DNA from: Sinohyriopsis cumingii
Taxonomy: Eukaryota; Mollusca; Bivalvia; Unionida; Unionidae
Direction: 5' to 3'
DNA length: 64,000 nt
Assembly (NCBI GenBank): GCA_028554795.2
Contig: CM068839.1
Coordinates: 90,864,182-90,928,181, forward strand
Translations under genes and position numbers: made by a program
Shown here: piece after piece, positions 20,485 to 63,491 of the stretch
Numbering within the stretch: the stretch's first letter is position 1
Layout of the letters: every line of letters starts with the position of its first letter
Notes under the pieces: model-generated
The model's database searches: none
What the model saw: only the letters and a program-made list of their open reading frames with translations
Told to the model about the DNA's origin: nothing

Positions 20485-20655
20485 CTTGGGACTGTATAGG
20501 GTCTATGTAAACCCTGGGACTGTATAGGGTCTATGCAAAATTTAAACAAGGAGGGGTCTCTATTTTTTTTAAAAATAAATCAATAAAAATGGGGTAGGCA
20601 ATTGAAAGTCTATCTCTTTTCGAGAAATTGGAGTGGCCCTGAAAAGGGCCTTTGG
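20485..20655. repeat. Left terminal repeat of A (truncated)
   Basis: Two subterminal units (CTGGGACTGTATAGGGTCTA) remain, followed by an AT tract, GGGGTAGGCAATTGAAAG and a histone-type stem-loop. It is the inverse of 60533-60907, which has about six or seven units and the terminal AGTAGTGAATAGGG. Confidence 0.85.
20612..20653 (-). terminator. Histone-type 3' stem-loop, left end of A
   Basis: The minus strand reads AAA, then GGCCCTTTTCAGGGCC (20650-20635), ACTCCA, then TTTCTCGAAAAGAGATA as the purine-rich downstream element. It lies 25 bases past the stop of the small minus gene and inside the terminal repeat. Confidence 0.9.
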
Positions 20656-20674
20656 TTTTATGTTAATGTATCCA

Positions 20675-20908
20675 TTAACATAAAGGGCACCGCATTGGTC
20701 TTCTTCTTGTCCTTAGGCTGCGTCTCACTGTAGGACCATACATTAAAACTCTTTTGAGGCATCCTTGCCTCTCCACGTAAATCCTACGTATCCACAGACT
20801 AGTGTCTGTCCTATGGACAACTGTCCAGTTGGATCGGACATACATGGGTATGTCCGTCCGGAACATCATCGAAGACACAAGCGTGGAAGATTGTACGTCG
20901 GTCCACAT
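20675..20908 (-). CDS. Left-end small basic protein (A)
   Basis: 77 residues starting MWTDVQSSTLVSSMMF and ending RRPMRCPLC. The homologue in D is 76 residues and nearly identical in the core (WTVVHRT, LWIRR, ERQGCLKR, LMYGP, VRRSLR, CPLC); B has one with a stop at codon 2. The protein is Arg-rich with a Cys pair at the end. I recognise no family. It is transcribed outward from a divergent promoter and ends in a histone-type stem-loop. Conservation of frame and length across elements supports a real gene. Confidence 0.65.
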   Translation of the reverse strand: MWTDVQSSTLVSSMMFRTDIPMYVRSNWTVVHRTDTSLWIRRIYVERQGCLKRVLMYGPTVRRSLRTRRRPMRCPLC

Positions 20909-21128
20909 CTTGAGGCGGCAAGTAACAGGTGAGTGATTGCACTGAACTGCACATATTTATCGGGACAGAAAGGATTGAAACGGATTGAGTTCGTTGACCA
21001 ATCCAAACACGTGTTACAAAATTCAGTCAGCCCACATCCAATCCGAAGAGAGCAGTCTGTGACGTCACGTAGTATATATAGATTCGCTAGCGCCTGTGCG
21101 CAGTCAATCCATCCGACAGTTTTTCAAC
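20909..21128. promoter_or_regulatory. Divergent left-end promoter of A
   Basis: It separates the minus gene at 20908 from the plus gene at 21129. Visible sites: CCAATCC twice, a CRE-like TGACGTCA at 21060-21067, TATATATAG at about 21071 for the plus gene, and an AT-rich ATAAATA on the minus strand at about 20950. The same arrangement occurs in B and D. Confidence 0.7.
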
Positions 21129-21686
21129 ATGACGGAAACTATGGAAACGATCAATTGGGGTGCACCAGCCGTTGAGGCTACACAAGGGAACCCGGACTTA
21201 CTTTCAGAAGAGGTGAATTGGGATTATGTGGATTTTCTTAAATGACAAGAATTTGTTCCAGAACCTTCGTCACCTTCTCCTTCATTACCACACGTGGAGA
21301 ATTTTAGACAGAGACAGAAAGAAAAACTGGAGAAATTTATGCAGCAGCAAAAGGAAGCAGAACAAGCTTTTCTTCTACAGCAACAGCAGCAAGAATAAGA
21401 GGTAAGAAAAAAACAAGAAGAAGAAGAAGTAGCAAAGAAACAAGAGGGTGAAAGTCAAACCGTCACAGTACTGTTGGACATTTTAGCAGAGTTAAGAAGT
21501 CTGAAACAAATGTATCAGACTTCTTTATCACGACCGAAGAGAATACGACCTTCACGAGCTAAACACTCTAGCCCTGTGACTAAGCCTACCGTACCACCCT
21601 TAGTGATTTCAACCAAATCATCATCATCATCAGAAGTAGACCTCGGCCGTGGCAAAGGCTTAAGGCACTTAAAGTTGATTACTTAA
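21129..21686 (+). pseudogene. Gln-rich coiled-coil protein of A (two stops)
   Basis: Same frame as the intact B (40210) and D (62857) genes from MTET...NWGAPA to GRGKGLRHLKLIT, but TGA at about 21243 and TAA at about 21397 interrupt it. The C-terminal part (LLDILAELRSLKQMYQTSLS) predicts a helix and is well conserved. Function unknown. A histone-type stem-loop follows 20 bases after the stop. Confidence 0.8.
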
Positions 21687-21702
21687 ACTCACCCCTTCAC
21701 AA

Positions 21703-21747
21703 AAAAGGCCCTTTTCAGGGCCACCCACGTCTCTCGAAAAGAGATAC
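21703..21747 (+). terminator. Histone-type 3' stem-loop (A, Gln-rich gene)
   Basis: AAAAAA, GGCCCTTTTCAGGGCC (21707-21722), ACCCA, then CTCTCGAAAAGAGAT. This is an exact match to the metazoan histone stem-loop consensus with its ACCCA cleavage context and a purine-rich downstream element. Confidence 0.95.
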
Positions 21748-21958
21748 ACTTTCAGTTGCCAATAACTCAAAAAAGTCCCATTTTACCCCTATAGTACGTG
21801 TCTGTGTATGAGTGCGTGAGTGTACGTTCTTATTTTAAAATCAAAAACCCAAAGACACTTACCTTTCATAATTAATTTATTCTTGTATAAATACTTACAA
21901 TTCAATTCACAATTCACAACAAAACACTCTAAAAAGTTCATAGACTTCTTCTTTCTCA
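21748..21958. other. Spacer between convergent genes of A
   Basis: Contains AATAAA on the minus strand (TTTATT, 21876-21881), the poly(A) signal of the zinc-knuckle gene. The word GTACGTGTCTGTGTATGAGTG is shared with B and D. Confidence 0.6.
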
Positions 21959-62063: not shown

Positions 62064-62388
62064 AGTAGTGAAAGGGGGCACCCTACGTACAATGGGAATT
62101 AGCATTACAGGGACCCCTGGGTCACTCTACGTACAATGGAAATTTAACATGGCAAAAAATCGTGGGTCACTCTACGTACAAGGGGAATTTAACATGGCAA
62201 TGAATCGTGGGTCACTCTACGTACAAGGGGAATTTAACATGGCAATAAATCGTGGGTCACTCTACGTACAAGGGGAATTTAACATGGGATTTTTTTTTAA
62301 TTTTAAAAAATTTTTTTAAAAAAAGGGGTAGGCAATGGAAAGGTTATCTCTTTTCGAGAAATATGGCTGGCCCTGAAAAGGGCCTTTG
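62064..62388. repeat. Left terminal repeat of D
   Basis: Four subterminal units (GGGTCACTCTACGTACAAGG then GGAATTTAACATGG), an AT tract and GGGGTAGGCAATGGAAAGG, then the stem-loop. The unit core differs completely from those of A, B and W while the joint AATTTAACATGG is kept. Confidence 0.9.
62344..62387 (-). terminator. Histone-type 3' stem-loop, left end of D
   Basis: Minus strand AAA, GGCCCTTTTCAGGGCC (62384-62369), AGCCA, then TTTCTCGAAAAGAGATA. Confidence 0.93.
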
Positions 62389-62406
62389 GTTTATGTTAAT
62401 ATGCCC

Positions 62407-62637
62407 TTAACATAAAGGGCATTTGCGACATCTTCTTTTCCTCAAACTTCGTCTTACAGCAGGGCCATACATCAGAGTCCTCTTGAGGCAACCTTGTCTC
62501 TCTATATAGACTCTTCTTATCCACAGACTGCTGTTGGTCCTGTGGACAACGGTCCACTTGGATCGGACATACATGAGCATGTCCGTCCTGAACATCATTG
62601 TTGACACAAGGGTTGAAGATTCAACGTCGGTCCACAT
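62407..62637 (-). CDS. Left-end small basic protein (D)
   Basis: 76 residues: MWTDVESSTLVSTMMFRTDM, YVRSKWTVVHRTNSSLWIRR, QGCLKRTLMYGPAVRRSLRK, ending CRKCPLC. Intact, close to A. Basic, with clustered Cys at the end; family unknown. Its stop lies about 22 bases before the stem-loop. Confidence 0.7.
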   Translation of the reverse strand: MWTDVESSTLVSTMMFRTDMLMYVRSKWTVVHRTNSSLWIRRVYIERQGCLKRTLMYGPAVRRSLRKRRCRKCPLC

Positions 62638-62856
62638 GTTGAGGCTCCGAGAATAGGTGAATCAATGCAGTGAACTGCGCTTATTTATAGGGACAGAAAG
62701 GATTGAAACGGATTGAGTTAATTCACCAATCCGAACACGCGTTACAGAATTCAGTCAGCCCGCATCCAATCCGAAGAGAGCAGTCTGTGACGTTACGTAG
62801 TCAATATAGATTCGCTAGCGCTTGTGTGCAGTCAATCTATGCGATAGTGATTCAAC
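62638..62856. promoter_or_regulatory. Divergent left-end promoter of D
   Basis: Two CCAATCC sites, TCAATATAG near the plus TSS, CTATAAATAAG on the minus strand. The CRE-like site of A and B reads TGACGTTA here. Confidence 0.7.
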
Positions 62857-63423
62857 ATGACGGAAACTCAGAAAACGATCCAGTGGGGTGCACCAGCAGG
62901 GGAGACCGCCCAAGGGAACCCGGACTTACTTTCAGAAGAGGTGAATTGGGATTTTGTGGATTTTCTCTCCTCGCAAGAATTTGTTCCGGAACCTTCGTTA
63001 CCTTCTTCATTACCGCAAGTGGAGAATTTTAGACAGAGACAGAAAGAAGAATTGGAGAAATTTATACAACGACAAAAGGAAGCCGAACAAGTTTTTCTCC
63101 TACAGCAACAGCAGCAAGAAGAAGTGGTAAGAAAAAAACAACAGCAAGAAGAAGTAGCAGCAAAGAAACAAGAGGGTGAAAATCAAACGGTCACGGTACT
63201 GTTGGACATTTTAGCGGAGTTAAGAAGTCTGAAACAAATGTATCAGACTTCTTTATTACGACCGAAGAGAATACGACCTTCCCGAGCTAAACACGTCAAC
63301 CCTGTGACTAAGCCTACCGTACCACCCTTAGTGATTTCAACCCAATCATTATCATCATTACGCAGTCCAGAAGTAGGCCTTGGCCGTGGCAAAGGCTTAA
63401 GGCAGTTAAAGTTGATTGCTTAA
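62857..63423 (+). CDS. Gln-rich coiled-coil protein (D)
   Basis: 188 residues, intact and nearly identical to B apart from shorter Gln runs and a changed Ser-rich patch (STQSLSSLRS). Ends GRGKGLRQLKLIA. The low divergence indicates that D and B are close relatives. Confidence 0.75.
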   Translation: MTETQKTIQWGAPAGETAQGNPDLLSEEVNWDFVDFLSSQEFVPEPSLPSSLPQVENFRQRQKEELEKFIQRQKEAEQVFLLQQQQQEEVVRKKQQQEEVAAKKQEGENQTVTVLLDILAELRSLKQMYQTSLLRPKRIRPSRAKHVNPVTKPTVPPLVISTQSLSSLRSPEVGLGRGKGLRQLKLIA

Positions 63424-63446
63424 ACTCACCCCTTCACCATAAAGAA

Positions 63447-63491
63447 AAAAGGCCCTTTTCAGGGCCACCCACATTTCTCGAAAAGAAATAC
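63447..63491 (+). terminator. Histone-type 3' stem-loop (D, Gln-rich gene)
   Basis: AAAAAA, GGCCCTTTTCAGGGCC (63451-63466), ACCCA, then TTTCTCGAAAAGAAATA. Exact consensus. Confidence 0.95.

Follow-up and report, generated by a model that had tools for sequence, protein, structure and literature searches.

Why would genes of a mobile element end as replication-dependent histone genes do? The histone stem-loop is regarded as a hallmark of those genes, and the question is raised by 64,000 nucleotides (nt) of the bivalve Sinohyriopsis cumingii (GenBank assembly GCA_028554795.2, contig CM068839.1, positions 90,864,182 to 90,928,181), the whole of which we call the window, and which carries four copies of one Polinton family: W, A, B and C. 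W is an old copy in reversed orientation, B is nested in A, and only the left part of C lies inside the window. A first-pass annotation of this DNA had proposed that Polinton genes here have histone-type 3' ends, an interpretation that our follow-up analysis supports. With a probability of roughly 0.86, five terminal non-histone genes of the element end in a host-type histone 3' signal, and SLBP is predicted to bind their transcripts, which the U7 small nuclear ribonucleoprotein (snRNP) would cut and leave without poly(A); the host SLBP/U7 route is predicted because the module matches the histone 3'-end signal of the host.

Stem-loop modules on five terminal genes

Are the stem-loops more than chance, and where do they stand? 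The first-pass annotation had claimed 13 of them and suggested a covariance search; run on the window with RF00032, that search recovers the identical set at E < 1, with six modules at or above the gathering score. The pattern GGCYCTTTTCAGRGCC, allowing at most three mismatches, matches 15 times, against a mean of 0.87 and a maximum of 4 in 100 dinucleotide shuffles, and these counts and the RF00032 scan together rule out a chance origin. All 15 matches sit in equivalent gene slots of the four copies, one by position only; the two beyond the original 13 are decayed stem-loops of W. Every element but W has five module slots, S and L divergent at the left end and R1, R2 and R3 at the right end. 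All five were found in A and in B; C has S and L within the window and modules at R1, R2 and R3 past its edge (3/3, all under the gathering score), and W retains R2, with decayed remains of L and, judged from position, of S. The earlier claim that "Polinton genes" carry the module holds for these five terminal genes per element and fails for the core genes, as RF00032 has no match between 41 and 57 kb, the stretch that they occupy. The left-end features are as follows, with RF00032 scores in bits.

20635..20650, minus strand: S stem-loop of A, at the inner edge of the left terminal inverted repeat (TIR), 37.5 bits; its histone downstream element (HDE) runs to 20610
20675..20908, minus strand: gene S of A, 77 amino acids (aa), a conserved open reading frame (ORF), dN/dS 0.09 against B
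21707..21722, plus strand: L stem-loop of A, 36.7 bits; the L copy of A has in-frame stops
39722..39737, minus strand: S stem-loop of B, 35.6 bits
39760..39951, minus strand: gene S of B, 63 aa
39990..40209: divergent S-L promoter of B, with two CCAAT boxes, a CRE-like (cAMP response element-like) TGACGTCA and a TATA-like TATTTAT towards S; roles inferred from motifs
40210..40782, plus strand: gene L of B, 190 aa
40809..40824, plus strand: L stem-loop of B, 26.4 bits
62369..62384, minus strand: S stem-loop of C, 35.2 bits
62407..62637, minus strand: gene S of C, 76 aa
62857..63423, plus strand: gene L of C, 188 aa
63451..63466, plus strand: L stem-loop of C, 41.2 bits
19033..19048, minus strand: decayed L stem-loop of W, recognised when aligned with the 3' end of L in C
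20437..20452, plus strand: probable decayed S stem-loop of W, a pattern match with three mismatches whose slot is assigned by position only

The right-end features are these.

38188..38559, plus strand: gene R1 of A, ORF
38586..38601, plus strand: R1 stem-loop of A, 28.9 bits
39059..39418, plus strand: gene R2 of A, an open frame with its stop at 39416-39418; stem-loop beyond B at 59494
59494..59509, plus strand: R2 stem-loop of A, one C.A mismatch, 25.1 bits
59930..60514, plus strand: gene R3 of A, 194 aa
60539..60554, plus strand: R3 stem-loop of A, at the inner edge of the right TIR, 27.7 bits
56973..57458, plus strand: gene R1 of B, from the first in-frame ATG; an ATG behind a TATA-like box lies further in
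57491..57506, plus strand: R1 stem-loop of B, one C.A mismatch, 19.8 bits
57974..58345, plus strand: gene R2 of B, 123 aa
58375..58390, plus strand: R2 stem-loop of B, 31 bits
58681..59100, plus strand: gene R3 of B, from the first in-frame ATG
59174..59189, plus strand: R3 stem-loop of B, 35.6 bits
9289..9304, minus strand: R2-type stem-loop of W, assigned by homology, 20.1 bits
57001..57026, plus strand: upstream motif GGGGATGTTTTCCNTCACGTCCGCGC of the R genes, one of eight copies (the others start at 38096, 39017, 57884, 58621, 58690, 59779 and 59845)

Each stem-loop is in sense to its gene and lies 22-73 nt past the stop codon. The position after stop codons had been pointed out before and stands, save at 59494, which is separated from its gene because B inserted between the R2 stop codon and the R2 stem-loop of A, duplicating CTGGAG. 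Alignment of the 13 window modules with one from L001, a distant Polinton described below, gives a single layout: an A-rich lead, a 6-bp stem with a 4-base U-rich loop, an ACC-like 3' flank (present in most modules), a spacer and a GAAAAGA-type element. AAAAG begins 15 nt after the stem (+15) in 13 of the 14 and at +14 in the other, so that the purine-rich downstream element reported earlier is there at a fixed distance, with the exact AAAGAG core in just 8/14. The HDE of the R1 and R2 modules is TCTAGAAAAGA; most others read TCTCGAAAAGA or similar, and in most S and L modules the element is a close variant of TCTAGAAAAGA. Upstream, the GGGGATGTTTTCCNTCACGTCCGCGC motif has eight window matches (at most three mismatches) against none expected; they span 38096-59870, all precede R genes, and most are followed by a TATA-like box.

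As the first-pass annotation held, no module gene is a histone: Pfam gives no histone match for S, L, R1, R2 or R3. Gene S (63-77 aa, minus strand) is an addition to that annotation. Its stop codon lies 22-24 nt ahead of the left-TIR stem-loops (20635, 39722 and 62369, all minus), which had seemed antisense; that they are antisense by-products is ruled out, since conserved gene S ends just before them. S is coding, with a genome-wide median dN/dS of 0.13 and dN below dS in 187/187 scored pairs (22 copies); for L the median is 0.44, with dN below dS in 168/168 scored pairs (19 copies). The median dS of S, about 1.07, is about tenfold that of adjoining L (0.11), a gap that end recombination between element lineages could explain.

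In the S-L region of A, B and C there are two CCAAT boxes and a TATA-like box facing S; A and B also have TGACGTCA, in place of which C has TGACGTTA. This divergent CCAAT/CRE layout recalls divergent histone gene pairs: S and L point outward from one CCAAT-bearing promoter region with a stem-loop end on each, although their proteins, unlike those of histone pairs, have no histone match. R1 has eight database homologues and L has 20, the contigs of the latter being no longer than 2.3 kb. One L homologue, P0130, lacks a stop, and its protein continues as WPISGPPTSLEKRY; the module of A's L slot, translated in the L frame, reads RPFSGPPTSLEKRY. We take this read-through as an indirect sign, a putative trace of the module in another element. 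Convergent with L, at 41046-41669 on the minus strand, lies a gene that has two stretches of CCHC zinc knuckles.

Could the hairpin act as DNA instead, as a TIR, replication or packaging signal? In both A and B each TIR has one of the element's five copies at its inner edge, two copies in all, as the boundaries of B illustrate.

39429..39434 and 59476..59481: CTGGAG, the 6-bp target-site duplication to the left and right of B
39435..39745: left TIR of B, matching the right TIR at 98% in inverted orientation, with the S stem-loop at its inner end
59165..59475: right TIR of B, with the R3 stem-loop at its inner end

The right TIR match of A is at 60530-60683. Three of the five copies, however, lie outside the TIRs. 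The loop, the flank and the HDE lack symmetry, follow the direction of a gene at fixed spacing, and match the host histone module. We consider a role as DNA rather than RNA extremely improbable.

Host histone ends, unselected copies and a distant Polinton

How closely does the module resemble the host's own? Host histone genes form a tandem repeat of about 8.3 kb (PF00125, at least 150 scored matches), from which four short stretches were sampled, three with ends: one of H3, and H2B from two repeat copies. The three ends score 38.2, 38.2 and 35.9 bits with RF00032. The H2B end is GGCCCTTTTCAGGGCC, the commonest 16-mer among the Polinton modules, and that of H3 differs by one loop base; both have the GGCCC/GGGCC hairpin found in the Polinton and TCTAGAAAAGA with AAAAG at +15. 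The Polinton module thus matches the variant of its present host in stem, HDE and spacing. It shares with replication-dependent histone 3' ends the 6-bp stem, the 4-base U-rich loop, the A-rich lead, the purine HDE at a fixed distance, a short 3' untranslated region and the sense orientation; it differs in standing on non-histone genes of a mobile element, with processing predicted from sequence. For comparison, the available text of a study of the bivalve Lucina pectinata gives a stem-loop in all reported histone mRNAs and purine-rich elements in some only (PMC6210712), and in mouse, according to the accessible part of PMC7026596, the CUCUUU core of U7 base-pairs with AAAGAG, and the transcript is cut 4-5 nt past the stem.

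Behind the HDE, some 34-42 nt past the stem, most modules of the family also have a TTGCC(A/T)A element. It is absent from L001 and host H2B, and TGCCA stands at about the equivalent position in host H3, which hints that a histone 3' flank may have been captured.

Is the module kept in copies elsewhere in the genome? The host assembly (2.9 Gb, 1138 contigs) was searched with the RF00032 profile, and 75 of 589472 first-look candidates were scored. Among the 75 matches listed, all over the cut-off and not including the window's own modules or the host histone ends (35.9-38.2 bits), 29 are S, 23 L, 23 R3 and none histone. Because they were picked by stem-loop score, we draw no conclusion on selection from their conservation; the fair test is a slot not used for picking. 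Of 20 copies chosen by S, 19 have an L end, and every one (19/19) carries the module there (called at 14 or more of 16 bases matching) with AAAAG at +15; all six pairs are kept in 16/19. The S slot of copies chosen by L has the module in 13/13, with AAAAG at +15 in 12/13, and among 21 loci chosen by R3 the R2 slot was assessable in seven and has the module in 7/7. (In one locus, L196, the element's own S slot matches 16/16; a 15/16 match belongs to the slot of an adjoining element.) HDE and stem-loop are kept in all assessable unselected slots except one S slot with GAAAATAG.

In the 13 S slots not used for picking, stem-loop and HDE are conserved above their flanks. Pairwise differences across the 13 amount to 0/1248 in the stem-loop and 12/624 in the HDE, against 173/1092 in the spacer, 447/1716 in the tail and 660/2333 at the 4-fold sites of S. 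Comparison of A with B over the five slots gives 4/80 in the stem-loop (P 0.0013) and 3/45 in the HDE (P 0.041), and 15/64, 28/150 and 80/474 in spacer, tail and 4-fold sites. Over the 14 aligned sequences, 97.6% of 84 stem cells pair and two are broken, and the covariation score of the stem is reached by 0/500 shuffles. Paired stem changes had been put forward as evidence for selection on RNA structure; the covariation is slight, with such a change at one pair of six, from G-C to A-U, in 5/14 sequences, and a C.A mismatch breaks another pair in 2/14.

The module is also found in a distant Polinton. Named relatives of the DNA polymerase B (PolB) rank highest in oysters, with mussels and clams lower, among other animals, and one comes from a metagenome-assembled genome of 'Candidatus Thiodiazotropha', which lives in symbiosis with lucinid clams. 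Our distant set comprised four PolB relatives from prokaryote genome bins, on contigs inferred to be contaminants. One, L001 (8.9 kb), has a PolB 37% identical, an rve integrase whose chromodomain match is below its cut-off, and a capsid-like ORF 30% identical. Its RF00032 match, over the gathering threshold, scores 35.8 bits, the stem beginning 28 nt past the stop codon of a C2H2 gene (89 aa), and its HDE, CTCCAAAAAAGAGAT, stands at equal spacing with AAAGAG at +16. Upstream of the C2H2 gene lie three copies of TGACGTCA (0/20000 shuffles reach this) and one reversed CCAAT box. L001 is, on its sequence, an independent occurrence of the module in a distant Polinton. Divergent from the C2H2 gene, at 7189-7695 on the minus strand of L001, is a homologue of the TATA-binding protein (PF00352, 1.2e-27). 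Zinc-finger regulators ('Ziftr') are noted for some adintoviruses in the accessible part of PMC11071296. In IMG/VR, GGCYCTTTTCAGRGCC matched 101 stretches, about chance level by our own estimate, and none with an ACC flank; among the 102 matches at loci retrieved for it, L001 included, AC follows in L001 only. No relatives of PolB and integrase were confirmed in IMG/VR.

Contrary evidence, capture and polyadenylation

Several results weigh against a histone-type end on these genes. Seven of the 13 window modules fall under the RF00032 gathering score, and two carry a C.A mismatch. The double change in the stem affects one base pair only, and 469/500 shuffles also show such a pair. After the stem, host H2B has ATAC rather than ACC, and host H3 has ACAC. 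Searches of the host genome for U7 (RF00066 and one pattern) and for SLBP (PF15247) came up empty, as did their family controls, so that this negative carries no weight. Three of the four distant PolB loci, fragments of 3.6-7.9 kb, have no RF00032 match. Gene L differs between B and C by two synonymous and eight other changes (ratio 1.15, on few changes). In the 19 unselected L slots the differences number 123/2736 in the stem-loop, 48/1368 in the HDE, 296/2394 in the spacer and 1099/3582 in the tail (probably inflated by indels), against 575/9246 at 4-fold sites, so that the stem-loop, at 4.5%, is hardly below the 4-fold sites at 6.2%. Finally, AATAAA occurs 110-115 nt past the stop in B's R1, B's R2 and the L001 gene, at +17 in B's L and at +258 in C's L.

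Might the module have been acquired a single time, along with a histone 3' flank, and kept through recent copying, not selection? Such a history would account for the TTGCC tail common to the family's modules and for the TGCCA at about the same place in host H3; an L dS of 0.11 marks many of the copies as young, and the L slots are, as just seen, little constrained beyond 4-fold sites. It does not account for conservation above the neighbouring bases where synonymous sites have diverged, in the S slots (0/1248 versus 660/2333) and between A and B, nor for L001, which has stem-loop and HDE without the TTGCC tail. We judge it very unlikely.

The AATAAA signals bear on a different possibility, that the module is unused or optional and transcripts end mostly at downstream poly(A) sites, as those of some histone genes can; since such signals lie downstream of several module genes, polyadenylation could be an alternative. 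Human H2AC18 offers a precedent, with either processing route possible in the available text of PMC9756948. At the place matching the AATAAA of B's R1 and R2, however, A reads AATATAAA, neither AATAAA nor ATTAAA occurs in the 300 nt after R3 of A or of B, and HDE and stem-loop are retained in the unselected slots, bar the S slot with GAAAATAG. We think it unlikely that poly(A) sites are the main ends of these transcripts, and the histone-type end remains the reading that we favor.

The core genes present another picture. B encodes the following, none with a stem-loop.

43533..45752, plus strand: DNA polymerase B (PF03175, 8.2e-34)
48353..49300, plus strand: A32-like ATPase (PF04665, 4.2e-07)
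51305..52582, plus strand: integrase with chromodomain (PF00665, PF00385)

Among 16 core ORFs of B examined, four have AATAAA or ATTAAA within 300 nt downstream. The ORFs at 54347-55567 and 56214-56762 match ORFs of L001 (30% over 351 aa and 32% over 73 aa); no named protein family and no PDB chain matched them, and major capsid (double jelly-roll) and adenain-like protease are the names we presume for them. B also codes for a protein with a BIR (inhibitor of apoptosis) domain (45753-46541, plus strand; PF00653, 1.4e-23). PolB, rve integrase and A32-like ATPase, with TIRs 98% identical and CTGGAG twice in B, identify the element as a Polinton. It shares with Polintons and adintoviruses PolB, an rve integrase with chromodomain, the A32-like ATPase, TIRs and a 6-bp target duplication, and differs in the histone-type ends of its terminal genes.

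A possible S-phase programme

What would an element gain from such ends? In the mechanism that we propose, host RNA polymerase II would transcribe the five short genes, host SLBP would bind the hairpin of the S, L and R1-R3 transcripts, and host U7 snRNP would pair with the HDE (TCTAGAAAAGA, TCTCGAAAAGAG) and cut 4-5 bases past the stem. The resulting mRNAs would have no poly(A) tail and would be present mainly in S phase, when the histone machinery is active; for human cells, the accessible portion of PMC9756948 says that active holo-U7 in histone locus bodies is confined to S phase. The element would thereby time small regulatory or accessory proteins to the phase in which it can replicate too, and the core genes would use other 3' ends. 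On balance we lean towards the broader view that Polintons of at least two distant lineages run a poly(A)-less S-phase regulon of histone-gene-like terminal early or regulatory genes, borrowing SLBP and U7 snRNP from the host, which would tie the expression of a virus-like element to DNA replication in its host. The gene design that goes with it is a short continuous ORF, a divergent CCAAT/CRE promoter and a host-matched stem-loop plus HDE, and this view as a whole is in our estimate somewhat likelier right than wrong.

The first-pass annotation knew of no earlier description for Polintons, and this agrees with searches of the open-access literature, where the papers listed include no report of a histone stem-loop or SLBP in connection with Polintons, or of histone-type ends in a virus, transposon or non-histone gene; none is described for Polintons or adintoviruses there, nor in the available part of PMC11071296. 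There are practical consequences for those who study such genomes. Poly(A)-selected RNA data could miss Polinton transcripts of S, L and R1-R3, and many high-scoring "histone stem-loops" in a genome of this kind may mark mobile elements. S, L and R1-R3 offer a ready-made set of non-histone candidates for SLBP/U7 substrates that can be put to the test and, if the reading is true, they would represent a novel route by which a genome parasite ties itself to the cell cycle.

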